From Prevotella sp. (lineage in GTDB: Bacteria > Bacteroidota > Bacteroidia > Bacteroidales > Bacteroidaceae), in assembly GCA_017474485.1 (NCBI GenBank), contig JAFVHO010000230.1, positions 1 through 42,946 on the forward strand: DNA of 42,946 nt, written 5' to 3'. Each line of letters opens with the position of its first letter. The stretch's first letter is position 1. Of this stretch, positions 4,679-42,443 are shown piece after piece. Under the pieces are notes generated by a model. It was not told the DNA's origin, did no database searches, and saw nothing but the letters and a program-made list of their open reading frames with translations. Made by a program: the position numbers and the translations under genes.

Positions 4679-4679
4679 A

Positions 4680-6362: not shown

Positions 6363-6387
6363 AAAACAAATCGTATTTTATGGACTG

Positions 6388-6420
6388 CAAAGTTACGACT
6401 ATTCCCGCTCTTGGCCAATC
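6388..6420 (-). promoter_or_regulatory. Bacteroidota-type promoter of pyrG-purF-carAB
   Basis: A TAACTTTG -7 box (6388-6395) follows an ATTGG -33 box (about 6415-6419) with about 20 nt between them. The start codon lies about 25 nt downstream. The rest of the 6363-6554 gap holds no gene and nothing else recognisable. Confidence 0.75.
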
Positions 6421-6554
6421 ATTGCCATATTTTTTGATTGTTAAAATTACCCTTAACTTACAATTTGTCAAGTTTTCAAGACTACAACCCCTCTATTTTC
6501 TTTCTCTTTGTCGAAAAACAGCTCCAAAAACTTACAAAATGATAAAGGGTTAAG

Positions 6555-8663: not shown

Positions 8664-8688
8664 TATATTATCTCATTATAAATGCTAA

Positions 8689-8720
8689 TCGCCAGCCCAA
8701 TCTGACTGATGAGCTGGCGA
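8689..8720 (-). terminator. Possible hairpin terminator after pnp
   Basis: An 8-bp inverted repeat (TCGCCAGC and GCTGGCGA) with a 16-nt loop lies between the pnp stop codon and the S9 peptidase start. What follows on the minus strand is AT-rich but not a clear T-run, so it may be a weak terminator, an attenuator or an mRNA-stabilising stem. Confidence 0.4.
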
Positions 8721-8746
8721 ATAGCTATAGTGATTTCTACTTCTAT

Positions 8747-11092
8747 TTAGAAGTCCATTTTGTCGAGTTCGTCAGTGAAATCCTTGGGCTCGTTGGTGGG
8801 CTCGTGATACTCTTCGGTACGTTCACGACGCTCGCCACGCTCAGGACGGGGACGACGCTCACCTCTTTCACCACGATCACGGCGCTCGCCACGGTCGCGA
8901 CGCTCACCACGCTCTGGGCGCTCACGACGCTCAGGACGTGCAGGACGCTCCTGATAACCCTCGGGCTTCTCGATGAGTACACGGTGTGAGAGCTTGAACT
9001 TACCAGTCTTAGGATCAATCTCCAGCAACTTAACGGTAATCTTGTCACCTTCCTTGATGCCAGCCTCCTCGACGGTCTCGAGGCGCTTCCAGTCAATCTC
9101 AGAGATGTGCAGCAAACCGTCCTTGCCAGGCATGAACTCTACGAAGCAACCGTAAGGCATGATGCTGCGAACGGTACCCTCGTAAACCTCGCCAACCTCA
9201 GGAATAGCGACGATAGCCTTGATCTTAGCGATAGCAGCGTCGATGCTCTCCTTGTTAGGACCGCTGACCTGAATCTTACCAACGCCATCCTCTTCATCGA
9301 TGGTGATAGTAGCACCGGTATCCTCCTGCATCTGCTGGATAATCTTTCCGCCCGGGCCAATGACAGCACCAATGAACTCCTTCGGAATCTCGAAGGCCTC
9401 GATACGAGGTACATGGGGCTTCAGCTCAGGACGTGGCTCAGCAATGGTATCGGTGATGCACTTCAGAATGTGCTCACGACCAGCCTTAGCCTGCATGAGA
9501 GCCTTCTCCAGAATGTCGAACGACAAACCGTCGCACTTGATATCCATCTGGGTAGCGGTCAGACCATCACGTGTACCAGTGGTCTTGAAGTCCATATCAC
9601 CCAAGTGGTCCTCGTCGCCAAGGATATCGCTCAATACAGCGTACTTCTCTTCTCCGGGGTTCTTGATCAGACCCATGGCAATACCTGAAACAGGCTTCTT
9701 CATGGGAACACCAGCGTCCATCAGAGCCAGCGTACCAGCACAGACGGTAGCCATTGATGAAGAACCGTTAGACTCCATAATCTGAGATACGACACGAACG
9801 GTATAGGGGAAGTCAGCAGGAATCATCTCCTTCAGACCACGCCAAGCGAGGTGTCCGTGACCAATCTCACGACGACCTACACCACGTGAAGCCTTAGCCT
9901 CACCGGTACAGAAGGGTGGGAAGTTATAGTGGAGCAGGAAGCGCTGATAGCTCTTATCGAGCACATCGTCAACCAGCTTCTCGTCAAGTTTGGTACCCAA
10001 GGTCACAGTCGTCAGAGACTGGGTCTCACCACGGGTGAAGATAGAACTTCCGTGAGGCATGGGCAGCGGAGAAACCTCACACCAGATAGGACGGATCTCG
10101 TCAGTCTTACGACCATCGAGACGAATACCCTCGTCGAGGATGCAACGGCGCATAGCGTCGCGCTCTACATCGTGGTAGTAGCGGTCCATCATAGCCTCGT
10201 AGTCTTCCTTGGAGATTTCTGAATCCTCAGGAACCTCAGCCAAGAACTTCTCTTTGAAGTCAGCCAGAATCTTCTCGAAGGCCTCAGCACGGGCGTGCTT
10301 CTCGAGAGCCTGCTTAGTGATGTCGTAGGCGGGCTGGTACAGCTCCTTGTTCATGCGCTCACGCAGTGCCTCATCATTGATTTCGTGATCATATTCGCGC
10401 TTCAGATCCTTGCCCAGTTCCTTGCTCAGCTCAGCCTGCAGCTCACACATAGGCTTGATAGCGTCCATAGCAGCCTTCAGGGCACCGAGCAGATCCTGCT
10501 CAGAAACTTCCTTCATCTCACCTTCTACCATCATGATGTTCTCAGCAGAGGCACCAACCATGATGTCCATATCGGCCTCCTTCATCTGCTCGAAGGTAGG
10601 ATCTATGACGTACTCGCCATTGATACGGGCTACGCGCACCTCAGAAATGGGGCATTCGAAGGGGATATCTGAACATGCCAGCGCTGCTGATGCTGCAAAA
10701 CCTGCCAAAGCATCGGGCTGGTCAACACCATCGGCGCTGAACAGCATTACGTTGACATAAACTTCTGCGTGATAGTTAGAGGGGAACAGCGGACGGAGCA
10801 CACGGTCAACCAGACGGCTCGTCAGAATCTCATTGTCAGAGGCCTTACCCTCGCGCTTGGTGAAACCGCCAGGAAAACGTCCTGCGGCGGCGTACTGCTC
10901 TCTGTAGTCAACCTGCAGAGGCATGAAATCGGTTCCGGGAACTGCATCTTTTGCGGCACAAACAGTAGCCAGCAGTACAGTGTTGTTCATGCGGAGCATT
11001 ACACTGCCATCGGCCTGCTTTGCCACTTTCCCGGTCTCAATTGTGATGGTTCTTCCATCAGGCAACTGAATACTTTTCGTAATTACGTTCAT
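8747..11092 (-). CDS. pnp: Polyribonucleotide nucleotidyltransferase (PNPase)
   Basis: The 781-aa protein has two RNase PH-like domains separated by the helical linker, then a KH domain ([17 protein letters not shown]) and an S1 domain ([21 protein letters not shown]). PNPase degrades RNA 3'-to-5' by phosphorolysis and can add 3' tails. The last 80 or so residues are an Arg/Glu/Gly-rich low-complexity tail (repeats of [10 protein letters not shown] type) ending DELDKMDF. Such tails probably bind RNA or a partner protein. The repeat is also visible as a GC-rich DNA repeat at about 8820-8950. The start codon is preceded by a separate promoter. Confidence 0.97.
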
Positions 11093-28296: not shown

Positions 28297-28704
28297 ATGA
28301 ATAACAATATGAAGAAAGTAATCATTTGTTTAGTGCTGGCAATGATATCAGTAGCAGGATACGCTCAGAGCGTTGTTGGTAAGTGGGTAACAGAAGGTGG
28401 TGATTCTCAGGTGGAGATTTACCAGAGTGGTGACAAACTGAATGGTAAGATCGTCTGGCTGAAGAAAGGCGACGGCCAGCTCGACGTCCACAATCCTGAC
28501 AAGAACTTACAGAGTCGCAAACTTGTTGGTGTCAACATTCTTACTGGTCTCACCAAGAAAAAGGACAAGTGGGAAGGCGGAAAGATCTACAACCCCAAGA
28601 ACGGAAAGACCTACAAGTGTTCCATCTGGCTCGACGGCAACAACCTGAAGGTCCGCGGCTACCTTGCCATGTTCTACGAGACCCAGACCTGGACAAAAAA
28701 GTAA
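28297..28704 (+). CDS. DUF2147 family secreted protein
   Basis: The 135-aa protein has an N-terminal signal peptide ending AGYAQ and a lipocalin-like DUF2147 domain: VVGKWVTEGGDSQVEIYQ, GKIVWLKKGDGQLDVHNPD and GGKIYNPKNGKTYKCSIWLDGNNLKVRGYL. The function is unknown; these small periplasmic proteins are common in Bacteroidota. MKKVIICLV at 28309 is a possible alternative start. The last 162 bp (28543-28704) recur at 29639-29800 with 12 differences. Confidence 0.9.
   Translation: MNNNMKKVIICLVLAMISVAGYAQSVVGKWVTEGGDSQVEIYQSGDKLNGKIVWLKKGDGQLDVHNPDKNLQSRKLVGVNILTGLTKKKDKWEGGKIYNPKNGKTYKCSIWLDGNNLKVRGYLAMFYETQTWTKK
28543..28704 (+). repeat. Direct repeat copy A (3' end of the DUF2147 gene)
   Basis: This 162-bp sequence matches 29639-29800 with 12 mismatches by my count (about 93% identical). 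Eleven of these are silent and one changes Ala to Thr. The stop codon is shared. Weaker similarity extends a few codons upstream. Confidence 0.9.
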
Positions 28705-29599: not shown

Positions 29600-29800
29600 A
29601 TGAACTTCAACAAAGAACCTGGCTACGTTTACATACTGACTGGTCTCACCAAGAAAAAGGACAAGTGGGAAGGCGGAAAGATCTATAATCCCAAGAACGG
29701 CAAGACCTATAAGTGTTCCATCTGGCTCGACGGCAACAACTTGAAAGTTCGCGGTTACCTCACCATGTTCTACGAGACCCAAACTTGGACAAAAAAGTAA
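29600..29800 (+). pseudogene. Truncated copy of the DUF2147 gene (C-terminal part only)
   Basis: This 66-codon reading frame begins MNFNKEPGYVYILTGLTKK and from there matches the C-terminal 54 residues of the DUF2147 protein with one substitution. It lacks the signal peptide and the first half of the domain. It is probably the displaced 3' end of the original gene. The near absence of amino-acid changes shows it has not been decaying for long, or came from a functional allele. Confidence 0.75.
29639..29800 (+). repeat. Direct repeat copy B (DUF2147 3' end)
   Basis: This is the partner of 28543-28704. The distance between copy starts is 1096 bp, and the kinase-like gene fills the space between. 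Confidence 0.9.
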
Positions 29801-29905: not shown

Positions 29906-30385
29906 TCAAAAACCTGTCCCTCCGATTCTTTTCGAAATCAAATCTTGTGATAAACTATCTTCTTCATCAAGCCATAGCTCTGACAAGTTATCTATAAGGT
30001 ATAAGTTAGAAAAGCAGTTTGTGAACGAAAGAATCTTGAATTCATCAAAGCAAACATAGTTACGCCAAAAAGAGCCATTCGGAATAAAATCGTTTAATTC
30101 TTCAGGATACCAAAAGAAACCGTGATTATCGTATTCCGTCATTTCCTGTTCCAACCAATCTCTTTCATTTTCGTTTTCAGCGTTTTCTATGCATTTCGTT
30201 TTTATAAGATCAATGACTGCATTCTGTATTTCCTTTTTCGGAATACCAGAATAGACCACAATAGGCACCCCAGATTCTACAGCAAAATCATATATGTACT
30301 GTTTAAGTTCGGTAGTTGGTTGTCCCGAACATACAAACCATAATCCAGGTTTGTTCAACTTCTCATATTTCTCTACTTTTCCCAT
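29906..30385 (-). CDS. Hypothetical protein (159 aa), last module of the island
   Basis: I chose the ATG at 30383-30385 (MGKVEKYEKLNKPGLWFVC); an in-frame TTG two codons upstream gives 161 aa. The protein is acidic with a Rossmann-like opening (GLWFVCSGQPTTELKQYIYDFAVESGVPIVVYSG), then an Asp/Glu/Trp-rich second half (FFWYPEELNDFIPNGSFW) and no signal peptide. I do not recognise the family. It follows the third copy of the junction element by about 15 nt and is the last minus-strand gene of the AT-rich island. Confidence 0.7.
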   Translation of the reverse strand: MGKVEKYEKLNKPGLWFVCSGQPTTELKQYIYDFAVESGVPIVVYSGIPKKEIQNAVIDLIKTKCIENAENENERDWLEQEMTEYDNHGFFWYPEELNDFIPNGSFWRNYVCFDEFKILSFTNCFSNLYLIDNLSELWLDEEDSLSQDLISKRIGGTGF

Positions 30386-30402
30386 ATTCAAAAGAATTAT
30401 GT

Positions 30403-30447
30403 TGCAAAGAAAACCAAGACCTCCGCCAACTGGTGGCAGAGGTCAAA
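30403..30447 (-). repeat. Junction repeat copy 1 (hairpin, T-rich tract, TTTGC box)
   Basis: On the minus strand: an 11-bp arm starting GACCTCTGCCA, a 5-nt loop, its partner arm TGGCGGAGGTC (hairpin 30418-30444), a T-rich tract, then CTTTGC. It follows the DnaE-like stop codon by about 70 nt and precedes the 159-aa gene. It is nearly identical to copies at 32999 and 36756. The similarity with copy 2 extends on the gene-distal side to an AT-rich TATCAATA stretch (30459-30476). Confidence 0.88.
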
Positions 30448-30514
30448 GGAAATTCCATTATCAATAGATTTATTTACGAAATATCTACATGCTGAACTAC
30501 AAAAAATAATGTAA

Positions 30515-32974
30515 TTAGTCTGAATTATACTTCTCGATGACTTGTCTGAACTCTATTGAATAATTGGCTTTCAAGTAAGCCATTTGATAGGCCAGCCAAG
30601 TGTAGCAAACGGCATGAGACTTATTAAAAGCATAAATTCCTTTACGCTCCATCTCATTCCAGACCTTTTCAAGAGCATTCTTTTTATGTCCATTCTTCAT
30701 TCCACCTTCTATGAATTTTGGTTTCAGAACAGAGAGTACATCTGTTTTTCTTCTTCCGAGGGCTTTTCTCAACAGGTCACTCTCACCTCTGCTAAAATCA
30801 GCAATCAAGCGAGAAAGCATCATCAACTGTTCCTGATAAACAATGAAGCTATAAGTATTGTGAAGGTACTTTTCCATACAAGGAATGATGTACTTTATTC
30901 CTTTCTTTGATTTTTTTTGCTTGATGAGAGTTGGTATATCTTCCATTATGCCTGGCCGATACATACAATTCAAGAGTACTAAATCCTCGAAGCATGTGGG
31001 ATAAAGCTCTCGTAAATACTTTTGCATCCCTTGATAATCAAACTGAAAAACATCCTCAGTTTGACCAGTTTGAAACAGCATCATAGTATTCTCATCATCA
31101 ATCGGAATCATATCAATATTGAAATTCTCGTTTTCCCGAGCTTGGATAAGCTTACAAATGTCTCTCATTTGGGATAATGTCTTCAGTCCGAGGAAATCAA
31201 ACTTTATAAGACCAGATGATTCCACTCGCATTCCCTCATATTGGACACATCTCAATCTCTTATCGTTGCCATTGGAATCCTCAATACAAAAAGTAGAAAT
31301 GGGTACCCAGTTTGATATTGGTTCATTAGCAACTATAAATCCACAAGCATGAACATCCAGGCCACTGATTTTTCGCTCCAATACAGCAGCATTTTGAATG
31401 GCGTTATTCAAAGGAGCTCCAGCATTTTGAATTACCTTTTGTAACTTTGGTCCATTTTTTATGACATCCTTAATCGGACGCCAGGAATAAACATAACGTG
31501 ACGAAAAATATTCATTTATGGCCATTGTCTCAGGAGTATGCAGTTGATTCACTCGTGCAACAGTACTGAAAGCATTTGCAGTTGAGAATTTGCTGAACGA
31601 AACAATATGAGCACAACATTCCTTGCCATATTTCTGCTGAAGCCATTCAATAACACGTTCCCTGCCTTCATCATCGAAGTCTATGTCTATGTCTGGAAAC
31701 ATCGTGCCATCTATACTAAGGAACCGTTCGAAAAGCAGGTCATGTTTCAATGGGTCTATTTTAGTAATCCCCAAACAATAACATACAAGGCTGTCAGCAG
31801 CAGAGCCACGTCCAGGACCGACCCAAACGCCAAGCTCTGATTGAGCGGTATTAACTACATCTTGCAGAAAGAGGAAATAGCCAGAAGCTCCTCTTTTCGT
31901 GATAATTTCCAGTTCAAATCGAAGTCTGTCAGTCACATCTTCAGGAAGCAATTCCCCGTATATTTGTTTTGCTTTAGCAAAAGAAAGGTGTTCCAAATAG
32001 TTATCTTCATTGTCCTTTCTTTCATTACCGAATCTGTTAGGAATATCAATAGTGGGGACAATGGGAGCATGGTGTATATCATAGAACTCTATCTTGTCAC
32101 ATATCTCCATTGTACTGGCTATTGCTTCAGGAACATCCGAGAACAATTCGCACATATATTTTCTGCTTGTCAACCAGCGGAATTGAAGTATATTTGTTTT
32201 GGCGAATTCATCCATTGTCTTACCCATAGCTGCACATCGTTGGATGTTGTAAGCTGCCAAATCTTCTGGAGCTACATAATGAACATCATTCGTGGCTACT
32301 ACCTTTACACCATATTCTTTTGCTTTCTGCATGAGAACGGCATTAACCTTTTGCTGTTCCAGCATCAAGTCACTTGGTTTGTTGCTCTTCAAGTCATAAT
32401 CTGCACAGCGTTGCAGTTCCAGATAGTAATCATCTGCAAACGTCTGTTTGTACCATTTGATGGTTGCATCCAGACCTGTAATATCATCATTGGAGATCTT
32501 AGTAAAAACCTCGCTACCAGCACTACCTGAGAGGACAATCAGCCCCTCATGATATTTCTCCAGATCCGCACGGTCTGTTCGGGGATAACCATAAAGACCT
32601 TCAGTCCATGCATTACTCACAATCTTAATGAGGTTCTTATAGCCAGTCAAGTTCTTGGCAAGAATTGTCAGATGATAGCCATTAATGTCTTTGATGTTTT
32701 CTTTTAGTTCTTTGGAACCTCGTCTAGCTACATATAGCTCACACCCGATGATAGGCTTGAATGGTTTCTTGCCCTTCTCCTGTCTTTCGATATTAATGCT
32801 ACTAACATATTCAAAAAAATCCATAATACCAAACATATTGCAATTATCAGTAATAGCAATACCTGGCATTTTTTCTTTAATGGCGGCATCCACTAATTCC
32901 CTGATGCTAGCGCATCCATCCTTTATTGAATAATGGGAGTGAACATTCAAATGTACAAATCGATAAGCATTCAT
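30515..32974 (-). CDS. Short DnaE-like DNA polymerase III alpha subunit, C-terminal domains absent
   Basis: The 819-aa protein has an N-terminal PHP domain (HLNVHSHYSIKDG) and a C-family polymerase core: GPGRGSAADSLVCY, catalytic Asp428/Asp430 in PDIDIDF, and a third Asp in KFDFLGLKTL. The PHP motif normally reading TDHGN is TDNCN, so one metal ligand is lost and exonuclease activity is doubtful. The protein stops at FNKSHAVCYTWLAYQMAYLKANYSIEF, just after the fingers, so the helix-hairpin-helix, clamp-binding, OB and tau-binding domains of replicative DnaE (about 1150-1250 aa) are missing. It is not the replicative polymerase. No ImuA/ImuB partner is nearby. A role in repair synthesis or anti-phage defence is possible but unproven. 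It stands alone between two junction repeats. Confidence 0.88.
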   Translation of the reverse strand: MNAYRFVHLNVHSHYSIKDGCASIRELVDAAIKEKMPGIAITDNCNMFGIMDFFEYVSSINIERQEKGKKPFKPIIGCELYVARRGSKELKENIKDINGYHLTILAKNLTGYKNLIKIVSNAWTEGLYGYPRTDRADLEKYHEGLIVLSGSAGSEVFTKISNDDITGLDATIKWYKQTFADDYYLELQRCADYDLKSNKPSDLMLEQQKVNAVLMQKAKEYGVKVVATNDVHYVAPEDLAAYNIQRCAAMGKTMDEFAKTNILQFRWLTSRKYMCELFSDVPEAIASTMEICDKIEFYDIHHAPIVPTIDIPNRFGNERKDNEDNYLEHLSFAKAKQIYGELLPEDVTDRLRFELEIITKRGASGYFLFLQDVVNTAQSELGVWVGPGRGSAADSLVCYCLGITKIDPLKHDLLFERFLSIDGTMFPDIDIDFDDEGRERVIEWLQQKYGKECCAHIVSFSKFSTANAFSTVARVNQLHTPETMAINEYFSSRYVYSWRPIKDVIKNGPKLQKVIQNAGAPLNNAIQNAAVLERKISGLDVHACGFIVANEPISNWVPISTFCIEDSNGNDKRLRCVQYEGMRVESSGLIKFDFLGLKTLSQMRDICKLIQARENENFNIDMIPIDDENTMMLFQTGQTEDVFQFDYQGMQKYLRELYPTCFEDLVLLNCMYRPGIMEDIPTLIKQKKSKKGIKYIIPCMEKYLHNTYSFIVYQEQLMMLSRLIADFSRGESDLLRKALGRRKTDVLSVLKPKFIEGGMKNGHKKNALEKVWNEMERKGIYAFNKSHAVCYTWLAYQMAYLKANYSIEFRQVIEKYNSD

Positions 32975-32998
32975 ATTAAATCAATTTTTCTTTTTTGG

Positions 32999-33043
32999 TG
33001 CAAAGAAAACAAAGACCTCTGCCAACTGGTGGCAGAGATCAAA
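32999..33043 (-). repeat. Junction repeat copy 2
   Basis: The hairpin (33014-33040) has arms GATCTCTGCCA and TGGCAGAGGTC on the minus strand, then a T-rich tract and a TTTGC box ending about 25 nt before the DnaE-like start. It lies about 75 nt after the metallopeptidase stop codon. A perfect AT-rich palindrome CAATAAATTTATTG lies beside it at 33054-33067. Confidence 0.88.
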
Positions 33044-33115
33044 AAAACATTATCAATAAATTTATTGTGAAATGATACAAGAAGGGCGTGCAGGATTGTG
33101 ACAGAGAATCCGATT

Positions 33116-33742
33116 TTATTTCATTAGGAATTCATAGAGATCTATATATTTTGAAAGGACAATATCCCTTAAATCATTCTGTTGCTTGGCATCGTCATTA
33201 ATAAGAACAGATAGATATGCCCAGAAGGTTTTTCTATGGTGCATATACTTTAGGTGAGCCATCTCATGTAGGATAACCATATCTAAGAAGTCTATAGGAA
33301 AGATAACCAATACAGGTGACAGACTAATAATCTTGAAAGCATTACATTGCCCAAGTATTCTTTTTCTAAGCTTTTTAACCTTTACGCCTTTCGCTTTTAT
33401 CTGTTTTATAGTCTCCAACTCATGGAATCTGTGTGGAAGCACTTCATTTGCCCTTTTGATAATCTGGTCACGAATGTTGATACGCAACCAACTCTGCAAC
33501 CTGAGATTATCAAACTGCGTGAAATCGGAATAAATCAAATCTAGTCCTGAATGGTCATTTCGTAAGACAATCATCATTTGGTTCTTTTTCGTTTGATATA
33601 CCATCTTTCCCATGCCTTCCTGTAACACCTCCTGAAGCAACACCTGATGCTCAATCTTATACCACTTGATGCTGAAATATGGAAATTGGAGCCTGAAATT
33701 GGGATTAATCCAAAAAAGCGGTTCTATTTTCTTATTTGCCAT
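33116..33742 (-). CDS. YgjP-like (DUF45, M48-type) metallopeptidase
   Basis: The 208-aa protein has the zinc motif HEMAH (His159, Glu160, His163) followed by LKYMHHRKTFW, matching the YgjP/DUF45 family pattern HELCHLKHMNHSPAFW. No signal peptide is present, so it acts in the cytoplasm. The gene overlaps the end of the VWA gene by 19 bp, indicating translational coupling. In this operon it could be the effector or a processing protease controlled by the MoxR/VWA pair. That is inference from gene order. Confidence 0.85.
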   Translation of the reverse strand: MANKKIEPLFWINPNFRLQFPYFSIKWYKIEHQVLLQEVLQEGMGKMVYQTKKNQMMIVLRNDHSGLDLIYSDFTQFDNLRLQSWLRINIRDQIIKRANEVLPHRFHELETIKQIKAKGVKVKKLRKRILGQCNAFKIISLSPVLVIFPIDFLDMVILHEMAHLKYMHHRKTFWAYLSVLINDDAKQQNDLRDIVLSKYIDLYEFLMK

Positions 33743-35082
33743 ATTTTGTCTAATACTTTTTCATATTCATGAGAATCATTACCTATCTGCAAGCCATAGA
33801 AGCGTGTACCCTTCTGACGTTCTTCTTGCATGAACTGACTAACACGACCATTGGGAGCGTCAAATATGAAATCACTAATAATTAACATATCTGCCATCGC
33901 ATACTTCTCCGAATTTAACATTTTTATTCCTGCTTTTAGCATCTCATTACCATCAGTACCCCCAGAATAATAATCACTTAGAAAAGAATCCAGTTTTTTC
34001 CATGAGCCAGGTTTAGACAAGTCAATACTTTGCGCTCTTACCGAGAAAGAAATAAGAAAACATTTTCTTTTTTGTTTTTTGGCCATTTGTAATAATTGCC
34101 TAAGCAAACATGTGGCCAATTCTATAGGCCGTCCACACATTGATCCACTTGTGTCAATACTAACGATGATAGGCCCTTTCTCCAAACGTGGCTCTTTCTT
34201 TTTGCTTTTTTCAACCTTTATCCTACTTTCCATTTTGGGTTTGTTGGCAAACAGCTGCAACTGGCTCATAGCGTATTTATAATAGAACAGGCTCTCTGTG
34301 TGATGGTCTGCGAGGATTGCAGTCTCTATGGGTAAAAGATGTTGGAGATTGTTACCATTAGTAATTTCTTCAACTTCTACGGCAGGAGTTGGAGGCGAAG
34401 GCAATAAAGGGAGGTATCTTTTGATGGTTTCATCTTTCTCATCCTCTCTTCGTGGTTTTTCTCTGCCTATCATATTAACTATCTCTACCATCTGAGGATA
34501 ACTATAGAACATTTTCTGTATTTTCTTCCTTTCTTTATAGTCTGTATTCCCATGCTCCCGAATGCTCTGTTCCCAGTAGGTTTTGTTTTTTTCGATACAG
34601 GCAGCTTCATACTCCGTCAGGTGATTGTCACAGGCAGTATCCCAGTCTCTTACTAAAGGGCCAAACACAGATTCAGGATCAGAGTCCTTAAATTGTTGAA
34701 CATATCCATCAATATTTACCTCCTCGGGCTTGAATTGTTGTTTAATAGTATTATAGACCTTTGGCCACATTTCCCTTTTTTTATCTATATCGCCTTTAAT
34801 GAATACCTGAATAAGATTCTTTTCCTGATGGTATTGCTCTTCCACAGGTTCAAAGAGTTTTAGCATAGCTTCTATAAAACTCAGTATTTCTTCTTTTATA
34901 ATATCCTTCCATACAGGGTCTTGACTGTTTAACTGAGGATTCTCATTAATGGCCTGCTGCATGAATCCTCCTAACAGATCGTCTGTAGGCACACCGTCAG
35001 GCATCCTGCCTCTGTCCATGTAGAAATCAAAAGCATCATCATAGGCAGCTAATTTCTGGGATATGATTTCTTCCTTTGTCAT
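33724..35082 (-). CDS. ViaA-like VWA-domain protein
   Basis: The 452-aa protein has an N-terminal helical region, with acidic and Pro-rich stretches (LPLLPSPPTPAVEVEE), and a C-terminal von Willebrand A domain with MIDAS motif DTSGS (Asp310-Ser314), GGTDG and a final VLDKIWQIRK. The layout and the motifs match ViaA, partner of the MoxR ATPase RavA in E. coli. It overlaps the upstream ATPase gene by 4 bp (ATGA). It probably binds metal-dependent ligands and links the ATPase to its target. Confidence 0.85.
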   Translation of the reverse strand: MTKEEIISQKLAAYDDAFDFYMDRGRMPDGVPTDDLLGGFMQQAINENPQLNSQDPVWKDIIKEEILSFIEAMLKLFEPVEEQYHQEKNLIQVFIKGDIDKKREMWPKVYNTIKQQFKPEEVNIDGYVQQFKDSDPESVFGPLVRDWDTACDNHLTEYEAACIEKNKTYWEQSIREHGNTDYKERKKIQKMFYSYPQMVEIVNMIGREKPRREDEKDETIKRYLPLLPSPPTPAVEVEEITNGNNLQHLLPIETAILADHHTESLFYYKYAMSQLQLFANKPKMESRIKVEKSKKKEPRLEKGPIIVSIDTSGSMCGRPIELATCLLRQLLQMAKKQKRKCFLISFSVRAQSIDLSKPGSWKKLDSFLSDYYSGGTDGNEMLKAGIKMLNSEKYAMADMLIISDFIFDAPNGRVSQFMQEERQKGTRFYGLQIGNDSHEYEKVLDKIWQIRK

Positions 35083-36635
35083 AACAATAAACTGGCATTT
35101 TGGGCTTTAACTTCCATCTCCTTCAAACTCTTCTCGCATTGAGAAAGATATTGCTTGACAATCTTTATGTCGTCATCAGATAGAAATATATTTATGCAGT
35201 TATCAAAGAGCTTTTGCTGGTCGGACAACTTAACAAGCAACTCATTTCTTATGTCATTAAGTATTTTCAAGGCCATATTGGGACTCGGTAATCCAGGCTG
35301 ATTGAAAATGGTCGGTTCTACATTCGCTCTTTTTGTTTGGAAAGCATAAGGGATATTGTCAATAACAATTCCACCGTGACATTTGGATAATTTGACCTTA
35401 TTAACCTCTTGCGTATTCTTTATTTTATAATCGTAAAGTTGCCCCGTATAGATGGCATGGATAATATGGGCTTGCTTTGTCTCGTCGAAGTAAACTATAC
35501 CATCACAAGTTTGTTTTGAAGGGACATGACTATAATCCATCTTATAAAACAGGGTTTTCCCTTTATGATACTTCAATACGTTATAATAGAAGAAATTAAC
35601 CTGTACATAGTTATCTTCATCAATATCTTGTAAGTTAGATGATGCTGGTTTTTTCCTAATACAATTTAATGCCTGATCAATATCCTTTCCATATTTGACA
35701 ACTTTAACATCTATGGGAGATGTTATGCTAGAGCATACAATATCGATAATAGTAGGAATTGTCTCTGATTTGTTCCATAGACAATGTATAAGAATGGGGA
35801 TGTCTGTCAAATCGATTTGCTTGCGGCCATTCAAGAATGCAGAACTCTGAAGCAGATGGACACACTTTTTCCATCTGCGGTCAGAGATGTAGTAATCCAT
35901 TTCTTCCACCTCCTCCTTTTTTATTTCATTTTTGAGCCTTTTCCTTATATTGGTAATTATAGAGCAAATCTCATTTGAAATTTCTACATCTTCGATTCCT
36001 TGCTGCCATTTATCATATAATTCTTCTGAAATGAGAAGATGCTCAGGAACGGGGTTGGAATTTAAGCTCTTCTGACGAATCATCTTATAAAAGATACTTT
36101 CGCTCTGAATACAATTTGAAACCATGCGCACCAAGAATCGATCCCACAACGCTTCAAGCCCTTCGCCCTCAGCAGGGAGTTCGTTGCTGGCTGCTATTAA
36201 TGCTTTCATTGGTAGCTTCAATGTAGTGCGTCCATTTTGGAATATTCTCTCATTGATAGCCGTTAAAAGTGCATTTTGTATGGAAGGTCCTGCCTTCCAT
36301 ATCTCATCAAGAAACACAACAGTTGCTGTGGGTAAAAAACCATCCACCACGCGTTCGTATCTATCTTCATTTTTCAACAAAGAAATTGATACTGGCCCAA
36401 AAATTTCATCAGGAGTGCTGAAACGTGACATGAGGTATTCAAAAGCATTCCCTTCTTTGAAAGCCATTTTCAGCCTTCTAGCCACCAAGCTTTTTGCAGT
36501 GCCTGGAGGGCCAAGTAAGAAAATGCTTTCTCCAGCAATAGCACTCAAAAGAGACATTGCAATGATTTGCTCTTTCTCATAGACTCCATCCGACAACGCC
36601 TTTAATAGTTCTCTAACATGCTGATCTATATCCAT
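35079..36635 (-). CDS. RavA-like MoxR-family AAA+ ATPase
   Basis: The 518-aa protein has Walker A GPPGTAKS (42-49), Walker B VVFLDE (106-111), SRFSTPDEIFGP, AASNELPAEGEGLEALWDRFLVR and SDRRWKK. These follow E. coli RavA nearly motif for motif, and the length is similar to RavA (498 aa). The C-terminal 200 residues, which in RavA form the LARA and triple-helix region, are divergent. RavA-ViaA act as a chaperone-like ATPase module. Here the pair is joined to a metallopeptidase, and codon and base use are AT-rich, unlike the core genes at the left end, suggesting transfer. The mRNA leader is long, about 120 nt. Confidence 0.9.
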   Translation of the reverse strand: MDIDQHVRELLKALSDGVYEKEQIIAMSLLSAIAGESIFLLGPPGTAKSLVARRLKMAFKEGNAFEYLMSRFSTPDEIFGPVSISLLKNEDRYERVVDGFLPTATVVFLDEIWKAGPSIQNALLTAINERIFQNGRTTLKLPMKALIAASNELPAEGEGLEALWDRFLVRMVSNCIQSESIFYKMIRQKSLNSNPVPEHLLISEELYDKWQQGIEDVEISNEICSIITNIRKRLKNEIKKEEVEEMDYYISDRRWKKCVHLLQSSAFLNGRKQIDLTDIPILIHCLWNKSETIPTIIDIVCSSITSPIDVKVVKYGKDIDQALNCIRKKPASSNLQDIDEDNYVQVNFFYYNVLKYHKGKTLFYKMDYSHVPSKQTCDGIVYFDETKQAHIIHAIYTGQLYDYKIKNTQEVNKVKLSKCHGGIVIDNIPYAFQTKRANVEPTIFNQPGLPSPNMALKILNDIRNELLVKLSDQQKLFDNCINIFLSDDDIKIVKQYLSQCEKSLKEMEVKAQNASLLL

Positions 36636-36755
36636 AGCTACTCTTTGTCATTCATTATAACGAAGCAAAGACACATCACAGGTGTGTCATATTACTCATT
36701 GCTTAATAATTCTATTGCCATAATCGTATTATTTGTATCAATAAATTGATGATAG
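36636..36755 (-). promoter_or_regulatory. Leader region of the RavA-like operon with a hairpin
   Basis: This 120-bp stretch lies between the junction repeat and the ATPase start. It contains a 6-bp perfect stem GACACA/TGTGTC (36670-36688) followed on the minus strand by TTTGC, a shorter form of the junction pattern. It also includes a 9-codon frame (MAIELLSNE) and a dyad ATCAAT/ATTGAT near 36735-36748. Attenuation is possible but nothing is proven. Confidence 0.35.
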
Positions 36756-36800
36756 TGCAAAGAAAACAAAGACCTCCGCCAACTGGTGGCAGAGGTCAAA
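36756..36800 (-). repeat. Junction repeat copy 3
   Basis: The hairpin 36771-36797 has the same arms as copy 1. It lies 28 nt after the PLD gene stop codon and upstream of the RavA-like operon. The T-rich tract and TTTGC box are identical to copy 2. Confidence 0.88.
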
Positions 36801-36824
36801 GAAAAATGATATTATTAACTCCAA

Positions 36825-37337
36825 TTATACGATTGGGTCTATACAAAAGTCTCGACGCTTGCAGGTCTTACAGAATTTACCCATCCATACTTCATCGAAC
36901 TGGTTCATTGCTTGTTCGACAATTTCTGTGTCATCTGTAAGGATGCCAGCTTCAAAGTTTCTTTTATTATCCGTCTTCATACCGATACCGGCACCAGTAA
37001 GGTTTGCGCTACCGATGTATACTTCTTTTCCGTCAAAGACAAGCATCTTGAAATGAACACGAGGACAGAGAACTCGCTCCAAGCGGTCGTATAGAACAGG
37101 GTACTTGTCAAAGTCCTCCCGAAAGTTTGGACCTGGTTCTTTGGCATGAATGAGCCTTACCTCCACAACATGCCTGATAAGTTGGGCTATGAGAGCCAGA
37201 AATGGTTTCTTCTCTTTGCCCATCTCAACATACAAGTCTTTTATGTCGGCAGTACCAATCCAAAGCATGTGCTTCACGGATTGAACCCGTGATAGCACCT
37301 CTTTGAAATGGTCGGCATTGGAGATATACTTTAGCAT
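36825..37337 (-). CDS. Phospholipase D-like (single HKD) protein with C-terminal Cys cluster
   Basis: The 170-aa protein has one HKD motif: His95, Lys97 and Asp102 in HFKMLVFDG, then GSANLTG with Asn112. Single-HKD proteins of this size, such as the Nuc type, dimerise to form a nuclease or phosphodiesterase active site. The tail has Cys156, Cys159 and Cys165 (CKTCKRRDFC), a possible zinc site, ending IDPIV. The start lies 4 bp after the long DUF262 gene stop codon, so it is last in the five-gene operon. A nucleic-acid target is likely in this context. Confidence 0.82.
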   Translation of the reverse strand: MLKYISNADHFKEVLSRVQSVKHMLWIGTADIKDLYVEMGKEKKPFLALIAQLIRHVVEVRLIHAKEPGPNFREDFDKYPVLYDRLERVLCPRVHFKMLVFDGKEVYIGSANLTGAGIGMKTDNKRNFEAGILTDDTEIVEQAMNQFDEVWMGKFCKTCKRRDFCIDPIV

Positions 37338-37341
37338 ATCG

Positions 37342-39681
37342 TCACTTGTTTTCTAAATTCAACAATGACTCATTTTCTGACAGTTTATTAAACAGGGCAT
37401 GTCTGCACTTGTCCATCATTAAAAACGATTCATTTTCATCTTTTGGTAAATCTAAAAACAATCGATACCGGCCGTTTATCCATTCATATGACAAACTATC
37501 TGCTACAGATTTCAGTAAAGTCTTGGCATATTCGCAGATTTCCGGAATATCAGTTGGCTTTAGGAATAGATCTATCTCCATTAAGTCATGGTTTTCACCT
37601 GTATTCCATATCATATCAACTGCGATATATGGTTTTCTATCTGCAATTTGGTCATAAAATACACACGTTTCGTTACGAGGCCAGAATTGAAGTTTCCATC
37701 CAGGTCTTTCCGCTTCTAATTTTAGCTTTAGATAGTACTTATATGCTTTTATATTTGCATGTTCTGCTGACCATTTTTGTTTCTTCATTAAGAACCATGT
37801 TCCCCACCAGAATTGAATATTCTTTTCGTCACAATACTGTAATAATTGAGGTATATGTACAAATTCTGCGTACTCTTTATGGTATGGGAATCGATTTATA
37901 ATGACATTTTGCCGTTCAATCAATTCTTCTTTTGATGCAAATCCTATTATTTGATCCATGAAAGTTTTGAACAAAGAAACGTTTGAGAATATCAATTCAT
38001 GCCAATCGCTATACTCATATGCAAAGCTGCAATTAGTGTTTCCTCTAAAATATCTAGGATAATTATCCAGACCATGAGCGATGAGAGCCCTTCGAGTTAT
38101 ATCTAACTCTGCATAATCCATCTCACCATAAAAAAGTGCGTTGAATATTCGCCAATATTCTTTGAAGGCATTAAAGTCAAAAATATTTTCGTCATCAATA
38201 GACCATCTTATCATTGGCATAATCTCTCCATTCCAGACATTATGTTCCTCTGCTTTCCAGAATACATCTTCAATTTTATTGCGATTGGAATCAGAATCTT
38301 GATATATAGATAGTTTTTTCTTTACTTCCTCAGACAGAATCATAGAAGAAATACCATCTTCAATCAAAATTGAGGAAACGATATCATCTGATGGCATCCG
38401 CTGAATTAGTGAAAGAGCATTAGGTAACAAAGTCTTAATTGCTCTTTGGACATTTCTGTTTTTACTAAGGCTCTTAAAAAAGTTTTTGATTCTTATTACG
38501 GAACGTTTATAATCTTCAATCGATGCATCATTATGTTGTCTCAGATAGTCATTAATAGGAAAACGTTTGACATAAGCAATAACTGGTAATAACCTAAACC
38601 AAACAATCTGTTCATGATTTCCTTCTTCGGGTGAAAGCCAAGCTAAATTATTTTTAAAAACACCATTTTGGTCATCAAATAACCATTTTACGATTTCAAA
38701 ATATTCGTTTAACAATGATACAGAAATTGAAAGATCCAATGTGTAGCTTCCTGACTCTTGAATTTTTTCAAATTCCGTTTCTTCTTGAAGTTCATGATGT
38801 CTCAATAACATTATCCACCTGAAGAATTCCGCCATTCCATTGTCTGCGGTGTCATTTTTCTTTTTATCTCTTTGTTTCCAAAAGAACTGTTCCCAAGTTT
38901 CCCATCTGTCAACACATTCATTCCTTTGTTCATTACTTTGATGGCTAAATAACATCGCCTTCAAGTTCTCCGTTGTTGATAGAGGTTCTCCTGTTGTGTT
39001 AATTATGACGAAAGTTTCTTCCCCTGTACGGCGATTTTCCATATCATAGTACATGAATGTTAGATTATCAACAATCCTATTTCCTATATCCACTGGATTT
39101 AATCCAGATGTATCAAGAATCGTTTCTATATCTTCCAACGATTTTAGCATACTTTGAATGCTGGGATCTAGCTTATAATCATTAAAGAACCAAGATTGCT
39201 TTTCTATGTCAGATACATGCAGGTTATGTCCACCAAGGAAAAAATGCATGGTGAGGTCACTTAGGAAATATAGAGATGATTCTCTTATTGCATATTGAAG
39301 TCGTGGTTCGTGATCATCAGACAATTCAAAGTCTGAAATCAAGTAACTCTGAAATCCATTATTCTCCGTTTTTCGGTTGATCATACCAATAAGTAAAAAC
39401 AATGTGGTGAAGCGTTGTTGTCCATCACAAAGTTGGATATGACCAGCAGGTGCCTCGTATCCATAAATAAGCCCCAAATTAAGAGAATCATTGGCAAGAT
39501 TATTAATCAGGCCCTCCACAAAAGCATAAGCATAAGTTTTGGATATATCAGAAGACGTTACTTTGTCGCCCCAACAATAGTCTCTTTGAAGGTCGGGAAT
39601 AATAACCCTATTGTCGTAAGACAATATATACGAAAGCTTGTATGTTTCACCCGATACGAGTTTATTATATTTCAATGCCAT
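37342..39681 (-). CDS. DUF262-domain protein, long form without HNH
   Basis: The 779-aa protein has an N-terminal DUF262 (ParB-like/Srx fold) domain with IPDLQRDYCWG, the DGQQR motif in LCDGQQRFTT, and FVIINTTGEPLSTTENLKAML. The C-terminal 500 residues are rich in Trp, Tyr and acidic residues and I see no DUF1524/HNH motif. Related GmrSD and SspE proteins use the DGQQR motif for NTP hydrolysis in restriction of modified or marked DNA. The gene overlaps the preceding DUF262-HNH gene by 17 bp, so the two are probably a functional pair, one sensing and one cutting. Confidence 0.85.
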   Translation of the reverse strand: MALKYNKLVSGETYKLSYILSYDNRVIIPDLQRDYCWGDKVTSSDISKTYAYAFVEGLINNLANDSLNLGLIYGYEAPAGHIQLCDGQQRFTTLFLLIGMINRKTENNGFQSYLISDFELSDDHEPRLQYAIRESSLYFLSDLTMHFFLGGHNLHVSDIEKQSWFFNDYKLDPSIQSMLKSLEDIETILDTSGLNPVDIGNRIVDNLTFMYYDMENRRTGEETFVIINTTGEPLSTTENLKAMLFSHQSNEQRNECVDRWETWEQFFWKQRDKKKNDTADNGMAEFFRWIMLLRHHELQEETEFEKIQESGSYTLDLSISVSLLNEYFEIVKWLFDDQNGVFKNNLAWLSPEEGNHEQIVWFRLLPVIAYVKRFPINDYLRQHNDASIEDYKRSVIRIKNFFKSLSKNRNVQRAIKTLLPNALSLIQRMPSDDIVSSILIEDGISSMILSEEVKKKLSIYQDSDSNRNKIEDVFWKAEEHNVWNGEIMPMIRWSIDDENIFDFNAFKEYWRIFNALFYGEMDYAELDITRRALIAHGLDNYPRYFRGNTNCSFAYEYSDWHELIFSNVSLFKTFMDQIIGFASKEELIERQNVIINRFPYHKEYAEFVHIPQLLQYCDEKNIQFWWGTWFLMKKQKWSAEHANIKAYKYYLKLKLEAERPGWKLQFWPRNETCVFYDQIADRKPYIAVDMIWNTGENHDLMEIDLFLKPTDIPEICEYAKTLLKSVADSLSYEWINGRYRLFLDLPKDENESFLMMDKCRHALFNKLSENESLLNLENK

Positions 39682-41350
39682 AGTAGTTTTTTATTTCATT
39701 GAGAATTGACTCCTTATTTTCTTGTATCTCTCTTATACCCCATGAACTTTTGGCAAAAACAGACATGGAATGCAATAAATGTCGACTACGGAAGGGCTTA
39801 TCTTCTTCGTCAACTTGGAAATATATACTCTTTTTTTCTTCAACAGTTTTTGCGCCGAATTTTGAATTTTCATTTTTGTAGAGAAGTACCAAATTACCAA
39901 TACAATGCTCACTACCATTCCCATTAAATTTTGAACGGTCAAGCATATCTTCGTTATTGCCTTCTCCAGCTTCAATCTGATTGCTAACGGAATCAAAGAC
40001 TTTTGATTTTGGGAAAATATGTTCTAATGACCGTTCTTTCCAGATTTTGAAATCAAAAGGTCTTCCAAGTTTTGTGTCTTCTTCAATATTTCGACGTAGT
40101 AATTGCAAAAAAGCATAGCTATTATCTTCATTATAGAGATTATCACTTGACAATGAACGTAGCATTTCAATTTTCTTTGTTTTCAGTTCTTCATCAGCAT
40201 CTATATTTGAAAGATATTTAATAATTTGTGAATGTGAAAGACCGCTTTCAAGGAAAATAATCTTATAATAGTCACACACATCGAAAGAATTTGCATGAGC
40301 AAAATAGTCTATAATAAACTTGCTCCTATCCCCTTTGGGAAGCAATAATAAAATTGCGCCTATAATATTGTGTAGTCTCTTTTTTCTTTCTGTTTCATAC
40401 GCACTATTATATATGTCTTCAAATGACTTTTGAAGATGCCTCAAATCATAGAAAGTCTGTTTTGCAGAGAGTTCAGGATTCTCCCCCAAGAGACATGTTT
40501 CTTTGAAATTTTCAAAAGAAAACTGCTTTTTCCCCTGCGCGCGACGAACAAAGTAAGTTCTCAATAGCCATCCCATGGTATGTCCTTCTGTGCGGTAGAA
40601 TTCTCTAACTTTATTTTGATTCCACCAGTACAACCACTTGTCCCACTCTCTGGCATAACGGCTTCTTAAGGCATTCTGCTCCCAGCGTATGTCTTCACTA
40701 TTATCATCCGAAAGAGAAACAAGGCGTAGCAATTCTGCTTTTATAATTTCTTCTTCGGACATGTCTGCTTTGTTGCCATTCATCATAGTAAACACTGTCG
40801 ATGCTTTCCTGTCAGGAATTACAATATATAGGAACCGGATATTGGTAAGTATATCGTTAATCCTTTCATGAGGTATGTTCTCTGCCAGTATGGTTCTGAT
40901 AGTTTTTTTGAAGAAATACAAATCCTGAAATTTTTCGTTCGTGTCTTCTTTGGCCATCTCATGTAATTCATCTGTGCTTTTACCAATAATACTGCGTAAA
41001 AACTCACCTGCGCCACCCACACAATTATCACGTCTTACATTATAACGTATCTGCATATTATTCTTATATTGCAAACATGTAAGCAACAAGAAGAAAAAGG
41101 TCATTCTCTGTTGACCATCAATGACACTAATCCCATCTGAGGTTTCAGACACAGTAAGACCTTGAAGAAATAATTGTTTGGGTATCGAAGGAGTTAATAT
41201 GCTGTCTCTGATACTTCGTAAAATATGTTCTACAGAATTCTCTGATGTATCTTTTCTGTTTTTCCCCCAGATATATCCTCTTTGGTATGGAGGAATAGTA
41301 ATTACCGGATTCTGAGCAATTAGCTCACCTAGAGATATTATTGCGCTCAT
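39665..41350 (-). CDS. DUF262-HNH (DUF1524) GmrSD-like protein
   Basis: The 561-aa protein has an N-terminal DUF262 domain: IPPYQRGYIWG, DGQQR (78-82) and VFTMMNGNKADMSEEEIIKAELL. The C-terminal DUF1524 domain carries an HNH-type nuclease motif, His444 in SLEHIFPKS and HCIGNLVLLYKNENSKFG. The architecture matches GmrSD and SspE, type IV-like defence proteins that couple NTP hydrolysis to DNA cleavage. It starts 12 bp after the 73-aa gene. The order in the operon suggests a complex with the long DUF262 protein. Confidence 0.9.
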   Translation of the reverse strand: MSAIISLGELIAQNPVITIPPYQRGYIWGKNRKDTSENSVEHILRSIRDSILTPSIPKQLFLQGLTVSETSDGISVIDGQQRMTFFFLLLTCLQYKNNMQIRYNVRRDNCVGGAGEFLRSIIGKSTDELHEMAKEDTNEKFQDLYFFKKTIRTILAENIPHERINDILTNIRFLYIVIPDRKASTVFTMMNGNKADMSEEEIIKAELLRLVSLSDDNSEDIRWEQNALRSRYAREWDKWLYWWNQNKVREFYRTEGHTMGWLLRTYFVRRAQGKKQFSFENFKETCLLGENPELSAKQTFYDLRHLQKSFEDIYNSAYETERKKRLHNIIGAILLLLPKGDRSKFIIDYFAHANSFDVCDYYKIIFLESGLSHSQIIKYLSNIDADEELKTKKIEMLRSLSSDNLYNEDNSYAFLQLLRRNIEEDTKLGRPFDFKIWKERSLEHIFPKSKVFDSVSNQIEAGEGNNEDMLDRSKFNGNGSEHCIGNLVLLYKNENSKFGAKTVEEKKSIYFQVDEEDKPFRSRHLLHSMSVFAKSSWGIREIQENKESILNEIKNYYGIEI

Positions 41351-41591: not shown

Positions 41592-42443
41592 TTACAATTT
41601 TTGTTCTAATGTATAAAACATTCCGTTAAGTGCTATGTCAAAAATCATAGGATAGAACCACGTTAATTTATTGCATAAGTGGTAGTCGTTCTTTTCAATG
41701 AAGTCCGTGATGTCCAATACAATACTATCCAATTTATCCACTTCACTATCTAATTTCATTTGGAAATTATCTGGTACAGAAAGTTGGAAATAAGAGAACG
41801 CTTCTCTTATATCATATTCTGGTTCATCAGGTGTTTCTCCCATGGCCACCTTGTAAGTTAGTTCTGCGGCTTTCTCAAATACATATTGTGCGATGAAGCG
41901 ACAGTCTATTTGCCAATTCCAACTACCATCATCATAATTATCCACATAGTCTGTTAGAGTGTGACTGATACGAGTTATTTTATCAACGATATAATTCATC
42001 TGCTCACGTGACAGTTCCGACTGGGCAACTCCTTTCAATAGTGGCTTTGAATTTTCGTCTTCTGCTGTTTTTGCTCGTTTAATGATGTGATTGATTATTA
42101 TCTTTTGAATCTTGGGGAAATCCTCTTCTGAGAAAGGACACGGGGGGACGTATGTGCCTAAGCCTAAATCCAGTTTCTTTGCCAATAGGCTTTCTGGATC
42201 TCTTACTACAAAGTTGGAATCATTACCATGCAGACGGTCAAACTTTTTGAATAGTCCCCATACAGCATTCTGTTCTTCATACTCAGAATCAGTTGAAAAC
42301 ACGTCCTCGTCCGTTTCGTAATAAAACTCTTCTTTGAGACGATCAACTTCAAAGGCGATACTTCCAACATCTGCATCTTCTGTATTTGCTTCCAGCAGAT
42401 AATCTCTCATTCTGCCGTAATACTTGATGACAAAGTCTTTCAT
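41592..42443 (-). CDS. Hypothetical protein (283 aa) in the DUF262 operon
   Basis: The protein is strongly acidic (EDADVGSIAFEVDRLKEEFYYETDEDVF) and rich in helical and Trp/Tyr segments, with no signal peptide and no motif that I recognise. It is the first intact gene of the minus-strand operon, followed by the 73-aa gene after 7 bp. A reading-frame remnant ends 12 bp upstream. It may be a sensor or a structural subunit, but the sequence gives no function. Confidence 0.72.
   Translation of the reverse strand: MKDFVIKYYGRMRDYLLEANTEDADVGSIAFEVDRLKEEFYYETDEDVFSTDSEYEEQNAVWGLFKKFDRLHGNDSNFVVRDPESLLAKKLDLGLGTYVPPCPFSEEDFPKIQKIIINHIIKRAKTAEDENSKPLLKGVAQSELSREQMNYIVDKITRISHTLTDYVDNYDDGSWNWQIDCRFIAQYVFEKAAELTYKVAMGETPDEPEYDIREAFSYFQLSVPDNFQMKLDSEVDKLDSIVLDITDFIEKNDYHLCNKLTWFYPMIFDIALNGMFYTLEQKL

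Follow-up and report, generated by a model that had tools for sequence, protein, structure and literature searches.

Regulators with a WYL domain are described in the papers cited below as controlling single bacterial defence systems or islands. BrxR, which regulates a defence island of the bacteriophage exclusion (BREX) type, has an imperfect palindrome with 11-bp arms and a 5-bp spacer before its own gene and a second related box, with five differences, within the island; its box is located downstream of the -10 element and BrxR represses (PMC9122601; companion paper PMC9122589). CapW, the homodimeric WYL regulator of the cyclic oligonucleotide-based antiphage signalling system (CBASS), binds a palindrome in the defence promoter at sites that overlap the -10 element and represses the CBASS operon (PMC9122588). 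DriD recognizes sites that have their centre at -35, with constant spacing to the -10 element of non-optimal promoters, and activates upon binding single-stranded DNA (ssDNA; PMC12340889, preprint), and PafBC is also activated by ssDNA (PMC11804915). RptR, a defence-island repressor, was distinguished from WYL regulators (PMC12255303), and WYL genes were found to co-localize with defence genes in metagenome-assembled genomes (MAGs; PMC10924106). A literature search over titles and the openings of abstracts found no shared junction repeat and no WYL-controlled modular island in Bacteroidales. Here a repeated intergenic element, hereafter the box, is analysed in a 42,946-nt stretch of Prevotella sp. 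DNA (GenBank assembly GCA_017474485.1, contig JAFVHO010000230.1; the window means this whole stretch). It is probable that the box is a binding site and promoter for a WYL regulator that switches on the defence modules behind it, with a hairpin predicted to end the transcript of the preceding module. Like the sites of BrxR and CapW, it is a palindrome associated with a WYL regulator, here of predicted defence genes; unlike the BrxR box, it occurs as near-perfect copies at the modules, is fused to a predicted terminator and promoter, and lies upstream of a -7 box.

A repeat search of the window detected a single family with three copies over 57 nt, at 30396-30452 (the reference), 32992-33048 (84%) and 36749-36805 (91%). 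The box unit of about 52 bp comprises a 27-bp palindrome, a T-rich tail and a -7-like box (Table 1). Its core is the near-palindrome GACCTCTGCCACCAGTTGGCGGAGGTC, with 11-bp arms and a 5-nt loop. A T-rich stretch lies before this core and a tail resembling TTTGTTTTCTTTGCA after it; copies 1 and 3 are identical to GACCTCTGCCACCAGTTGGCGGAGGTC and copy 2 differs from it at two positions. All three copies read in the direction of the minus-strand genes, their palindromes starting 27, 75 and 70 nt downstream of the preceding stop codon and ending 135, 39 and 32 nt upstream of the next start (copies 1, 2 and 3, respectively). The original prediction of three same-orientation repeats between modules is borne out by this search and by the lack of any match to the core in 100 dinucleotide shuffles, and its distances to the stop and start codons agree with the measured ones when the tail is included. 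No copy beyond these three was found in the host assembly at up to three mismatches. Between 29.9 and 37.4 kb the terminator-like sites with 11 pairs are exactly the three box stems, with folds of -23.2, -18.5 and -20.4 kcal/mol (z of -4.5, -3.2 and -4.6 against shuffles).

The identity of the probable regulator is indicated by related islands, at the head of which lies a gene of family F0. The F0 protein has WYL and WCX domains in Pfam and an N-terminal winged helix in a structural model (mean predicted local distance difference test score 75, predicted template modelling score 0.49); in Foldseek the model matched DriD and PafBC best, followed by CapW and BrxR, and a sequence search of PDB was weak by itself. 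The F0 promoter contains the left arm and core of the box, ACCTCTGCCA-N4-TTGGCG. When genes with at least 180 nt upstream were scored with up to four mismatches at 18 positions, this operator was present in 39 of 41 distinct F0 promoters, 21 of them exact at all scored positions, compared with 50 of 2000 random windows drawn from the same loci, which may themselves contain true sites; in one of the two exceptions a variant palindrome occupies this position (L130), and the other has none (L205). When 200 genomes of the genus were searched with the regulator, 100 had a match at E <= 1e-40, and 24 of these carry a regulator of class A (80-96% identity). The box, at up to three mismatches, was found in 16 of the 200 genomes, namely 13 of the 24 that have a class A F0 and 3 of the 176 that lack one (Fisher's test, 1.3e-11); the class A and box-positive genomes and the identities of more distant regulators were counted by hand, and short fragments beyond the cut-off would escape the class A count. 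Twenty of the 24 class A genomes were newly fetched, G032 and G008 being already included and G242 and G022 being represented on very short contig pieces. Among the 20 stretches thus retrieved by the regulator and not by the box, 11 have a strong box downstream, and in six of the other nine the contig ends within 7 kb. Conversely, F0 lies upstream on the same strand of the same stretch for 40 of 73 strong box copies (33 of 53 loci). The link between regulator and operator is thus strongly supported at the level of sequence, and the palindrome is most likely the operator of the regulator, fused to a promoter; of the possibilities raised in the original prediction, a common regulon operator, which it had named as the alternative, emerges as the better-supported core, given the palindrome in the WYL regulator's promoter, the co-occurrence and the class variant described below.

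The promoter features of the box appear to favour activation. The distance from the start of the palindrome to the TTTG of the -7 box is 36 nt in all 40 F0 promoters and in 60 of 65 internal copies, and the first letters of the -7 box are TA in 37 of 40 F0 promoters compared with 3 of 65 internal copies, 58 of which have TT (mostly TTnnTTTG). The Bacteroides consensus for sigma-ABfr promoters is TAnnTTTG with a TTTG near -33 (PMC7366714). Estimated from the -7 box, the centre of the palindrome is at about -30 and its end about 17 nt upstream of the transcription start. Activation by F0 is thus suggested by a palindrome centred at about -30 in place of the missing -33 element, combined with a weakened internal -7 box, as in DriD-type promoters; F0 would bind the palindrome and activate rather than repress, and the signal may be ssDNA from phage attack or damage. 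The DriD and PafBC folds are the closest to the F0 model, DriD sites have a similar position and spacing (on -33/-35, at a fixed distance from -10/-7), and both proteins control multi-promoter regulons. Poor core elements, another trait of such promoters, occur in the internal copies, whereas the F0 promoter itself does not fit in this respect. Unlike the present islands, DriD and PafBC serve DNA-damage responses and not modular defence islands, and a terminator hairpin is not described for them in the text available. Position, near-constant spacing and weak internal core moderately favour activation over repression.

The internal copies also resemble intrinsic terminators, with a GC-rich stem directly followed by a T-rich tract. 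The median hairpin is -19.2 kcal/mol in 65 internal copies (-22.1 to -4.1) compared with -4.9 in 39 F0 promoters (-16.5 to -1.1), and the median number of T in the 13 nt after the palindrome is 10 compared with 8. As a rule, the internal copies are therefore predicted terminators, because a strong hairpin precedes a T-rich tract; hairpin and tract together would stop the transcript of the preceding module, an effect that we infer from structure alone. The site at the joints seems to have been shaped into a hairpin with a T-tract, perhaps at a cost to the quality of the -7 box. The combined terminator-promoter of the original prediction is thereby supported through the hairpin, the T-rich tract and the -7-like box.

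More distant regulators appear to be paired with other palindromes. Class B regulators are 50-59% identical to class A, and in their promoters different half-sites (ACCT[A/G]TGCC and its relatives) occupy the corresponding position; their islands contain modules from the same pool as those of class A. A class B box, ACCTCTGCCCCAAAACGGCAGAGGT, and near variants of it were found at junctions in three of the 200 genomes (G013, G034 and G133), all five copies lying downstream of a class B regulator on its contig and its strand. Two of these genomes, G034 and G133, additionally have a class A regulator with a class A box on the same contig, and at the joint between the PLD and DnaE-like genes the box is of class A in L107 and L115 and of class B in L257. 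Among distant regulators with at least 50% identity, 14 of 17 match at least six of eight half-site letters at the corresponding position before their best-fitting TTTG box, and the remaining three have a different palindrome there; among nine scored regulators below 45% identity (L217-L220 and L222-L226), seven letters were found in L217, six in L219, five in L218 and fewer or none in the rest. It is tentatively proposed, at somewhat short of an even chance, that the box acts as a plug-in socket, combining terminator, regulator site and inducible promoter under an ssDNA-sensing WYL activator, and that the two socket types, each served by its own regulator class, may coexist in one genome as orthogonal alarms.

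Several observations weigh against a regulator-bound, activated box. Of 14 fetched stretches whose regulator is more distant (about 44-57% identity), only 3 have a class B box, and in G134 a class A-like box is preceded, some 4 kb upstream, by a regulator of 59% identity. A strong box is missing from three F0 stretches of sufficient length for a judgement (L174, L175 and L183), and 20 of the 53 strong-box loci have no F0 upstream in the stretch; of these 20, two have F0 in another contig piece (L105 and L109), 12 are truncated where the contig stops and six (L099, L103, L119, L120, L133 and L206) extend for about 10-12 kb without F0. In the window's own assembly, which is 73% complete, the search for the regulator yielded a 52% fragment at the end of another contig, with a different half-site in its promoter, and a 28% relative, but no F0 of class A. 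Together with G005 and G134, this genome makes up the 3 of 16 box-positive genomes without a class A F0, and the class A regulator beside the G034 box has an internal stop codon. Five of the 65 internal copies deviate in their spacing, four by other distances and one by the lack of such a -7 box, and the internal TT in place of TA may serve the T-tract and not activation. Finally, the WYL proteins of defence loci, CapW and BrxR, are repressors (PMC9122588, PMC9122601).

This last precedent leads to the alternative that survives best, in which the operator and regulator are the same and the regulator is a BrxR- or CapW-like repressor that silences all modules until it is released by a ligand. 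The BrxR operator also has 11-bp arms and a 5-bp spacer, the palindrome of the box overlaps the -33 region so that a bound protein could block the polymerase, and, as with BrxR and CapW, the regulator has a palindrome in its own promoter, and in relatives it heads the island. However, an operator on or after the -10 element, as in CapW and BrxR, was not found; here the palindrome is upstream, starting at a near-constant 36 nt before TTTG. The internal promoters also look weak, which would be needless under repression, and the best structural matches of the F0 model are the activators DriD and PafBC. Repression is therefore possible and rather doubtful.

Two further explanations dispense with a regulator at the DNA site, and both appear improbable. 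A simple terminator-promoter pair that answers to no specific regulator, and owes its conservation only to a recent spread of modules, would suffice for the hairpin, T-rich tract and -7-like box of all three window copies and for the high similarity of the units, but it does not explain why the palindrome core is also found in regulator promoters, as a rule without a strong hairpin, nor the near-constant spacing and the co-occurrence with one regulator class and, as a variant, with another. Control at the level of RNA, in which the hairpin of a leader or 3' element would bind a protein or ligand instead of serving as a DNA operator, would fit the strong fold and the retention of the stem with G-U pairs (at palindrome pair 7-21, 65 distinct copies have T-G in 41, T-A in 23 and C-G in one); its likelihood is just as low, as the palindrome, at an estimated 17 nt upstream of the start, would be outside the downstream transcript, and the copies in F0 promoters keep the half-site and spacing and, as a rule, not the stem.

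The distribution of the box, with regulator control still regarded as the probable reading, points mostly to a single type of island. An exact-core scan of a genome-contig collection of 84,980 species returned 56 stretches, 40 of which were judged true copies by palindrome and tail; the other 16, without a full palindrome or T-rich tail, were dropped as chance coding matches, 15 of them coming from other phyla by title. The tail filter dropped 12 matches, three of which (L021, L036 and L062) proved real and are back in the later set. By title the 40 true-copy stretches are Bacteroidales, some of the family names being presumably of this order, with the exceptions of L030, a Lachnospiraceae MAG that has the same genes and is probably a binning error, and L038, "bacterium P3". 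Between one and five box matches were found in each of 38 searched genomes or records, and the fetched neighbourhoods contain 73 distinct strong copies in 53 loci, mostly of Bacteroidales, separating predicted defence modules that occur in many orders; when reversed sequence was scored with the matrix as a control, nothing above zero bits emerged across the scanned loci. Where a same-strand neighbour is in range, the boxes are mostly 26-80 nt past a stop codon (63 cases) and 15-70 nt ahead of a start (60), and their orientation is constant within each fetched locus. With at most five matches per genome (up to three mismatches), one orientation per fetched locus and mostly one island type, a mobile element resembling a miniature inverted-repeat transposable element was rejected. 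The search of other genomes that the original prediction had called for thus located copies between defence-type modules in many Bacteroidales loci, and neither scattering beside random genes nor a fixed gene order was seen as a rule, as the mapped copies are mostly in one island type and gene order varies.

The islands share a plan that begins with the regulator F0 and often an RNase_T-type exonuclease (F1), followed by a variable restriction-like block (GmrSD pairs, McrB-like AAA protein with McrC, PD-DEXK, Fic and others), often a PLD gene (F2), the box and more modules. Modules past the first box, many led by a box of their own, include the DnaE-like F3, the MoxR/VWA/YgjP set F9/F10/F27 and the IetA-like AAA protein F24, among others; F6, F8, F11 and F31 have no Pfam match and F12 has no assigned function, and the families that recur directly behind a box are F3, F6, F8, F11 and F24. 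The defence character of the islands is suggested by profile names found for part of the families, namely GmrSD, McrBC, PLD/DrmC-like, PDDEXK and IetA-like. The PLD gene with the box gave no match among phages and, among plasmids, one 67% match to the PLD gene alone; the core pattern had one match in a viral collection. The IMG/VR contig L067 / L137 contains an island with a regulator, a McrBC-like pair, two boxes and a DnaE-like gene, and may be a mobile carrier or a misclassified piece of chromosome. In the 2094-9994 region of L110 (G070:C17), an island apparently lies inside a gene of family F39, which we take to be Mg-chelatase/YifB-like by resemblance, with F39 pieces on both sides.

Modules change place at the box copies, which supports the exchangeable modules of the original prediction. 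Across the box, the PLD family F2 precedes eight recurring families on the same strand (F3, F6, F9, F11, F31, F59, F60 and F105) as well as singletons, and the DnaE-like F3 and F6 are preceded by six and seven kinds of genes, respectively. Among 2205 aligned pairs spanning a box, 218 share at least 150 bp upstream only, 88 downstream only and 12 on both sides; 22 are intermediate and 1865 share little except the box. For example, L125 and L180 are 97% identical over 1.2 kb upstream of the box and then have different genes, as do L128 and L179 (94%), while L171 is 97-98% identical to L105 and L178 downstream of the box with different genes upstream; relative to the window, L101 has an extra unit (a 103-aa gene, F6 and a box) between the DnaE-like gene and F8. 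Among seven pairs shown, the switch points vary (mid-palindrome, after TTTGCA, inside the tail and at about -20), and such variable crossover points argue for homologous exchange and not for a fixed-site cassette system. Integron cassettes with attC sites are likewise interchangeable modules in one orientation with similar palindromic repeats between them; unlike at attC, no fixed crossover point was found here, and the repeat resembles a promoter with an operator. Given the varying crossover points, the originally suggested cassette system is not supported if taken in the integron sense. A target of a site-specific recombinase, forming the attC- or dif-like joint of a cassette array, would account for the common orientation in each fetched locus, for one upstream gene with many different modules behind it and vice versa, and for near-identical flanks ending at the box, but is very improbable in view of the varying crossover points, the palindrome core in regulator promoters at island heads, the mosaic box-less junctions and the lack of a recombinase among the Pfam-scanned family representatives, a subset of the genes.

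The suggestion of a recombination hot spot is weak compared with that of exchange. Homology is one-sided in 273 of 285 pairs at boxes, which is consistent with a hot spot, and in 1699 of 2019 pairs at box-less junctions of the same islands, which weakens this as proof since such junctions are mosaic too; neither the pairs of this comparison nor the 2205 aligned pairs are independent. Double genomes L184 (= L117) and L186 (= L109) were excluded from junction, pair and locus counts, and the doubles G032/G063, G034/G060, G008/G086, G005/G064 and G258/G072 were excluded only if their flanks were identical. The related genomes L107 and L115 share the flanking families, the regulator family and the PLD-box-DnaE end and differ in the blocks between regulator and PLD gene; the exchange there does not use the box. 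Module exchange at the box is thus supported, with the box being one joint among others.

Taken together, the box is, by sequence comparison, a real, widespread and regulator-linked joint of modular predicted defence islands, and a variant of WYL-controlled defence regulation. Because the same 50-60 bp or so bounds the modules, homologous recombination can exchange them, and they would arrive wired to the resident regulator. If this holds, modular defence islands could gain and lose systems and yet keep their regulation through a common terminator-operator-promoter joint; a gene recombined in behind a box would be shielded from the adjacent module and come directly under one ssDNA-sensing WYL activator, and the defences that rumen and gut Bacteroidales newly acquire could respond to a common alarm. 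That one ssDNA-sensing regulator governs a set of unrelated systems in these bacteria is a testable claim, and the box provides a sequence handle for discovering unknown defence genes.

In the window, the order of transcription is GmrSD pair, PLD gene, box, MoxR/VWA/YgjP genes, box, DnaE-like gene, box and 159-aa gene (Table 1), and the contig ends upstream before any regulator F0 or exonuclease F1, both of which are found upstream in relatives. F2 is the family most frequently located just upstream of a box. The remnant of an F11 module gene, between the 36.76-kb copy and the next gene, is part of a 121-nt segment, box included, with 85% identity to L112.

Table 1. Box copies and genes of the island in the window, in order of transcription
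Feature	Coordinates	Strand	Remarks
283-aa gene, family F23	41592..42443	minus	without Pfam match; near contig end
GmrSD_N + GmrSD_C protein, DUF262 family, F7	39665..41350	minus	Pfam 9.8e-17, 2.1e-10
GmrSD_N protein, F30	37342..39681	minus	Pfam profile
170-aa PLD-family nuclease-like protein, F2	36825..37337	minus	DrmC-like by weak profile match
Box copy 1	36755..36806	minus	palindrome 36771-36797, -7-like box 36758-36765; PLD gene / MoxR operon junction
Remnant, start of lost F11 module gene	36692..36721	minus	short open frame with stop
MoxR-like AAA ATPase, F9	35079..36635	minus	profile match
VWA-like protein, F10	33724..35082	minus	PF05762, E 3.6e-5, 23.7 bits, under 26.4-bit cut-off
YgjP/SprT-like metallopeptidase, F27	33116..33742	minus	profile match
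Box copy 2	32998..33049	minus	palindrome 33014-33040, -7-like box 33001-33008; YgjP-like gene / DnaE-like gene junction
DnaE-like protein, F3	30515..32974	minus	PHP + Pol III alpha NTPase + finger domains
Box copy 3	30402..30453	minus	palindrome 30418-30444, -7-like box 30405-30412; DnaE-like gene / 159-aa gene junction
159-aa protein, family F8	29906..30385	minus	no Pfam, PADLOC or NCBIfam match (scanned as 161 aa, start at 30391)

Three minor features of the window were also noted. A weaker second terminator-like hairpin, at 36670-36688 on the minus strand, follows the F11 remnant and precedes the MoxR-like gene. Two direct repeats of 170 nt with 92% identity, at 28535-28704 and 29631-29800, flank a polyvalent-protein-type kinase gene (PF18762); the first of them forms the 3' end of a DUF2147 gene, so that the kinase gene looks inserted with a duplicated DUF2147 3' end. 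At the 3' end of the polynucleotide phosphorylase gene, 9-nt tandem repeats (8819-8959) likely encode a low-complexity tail.

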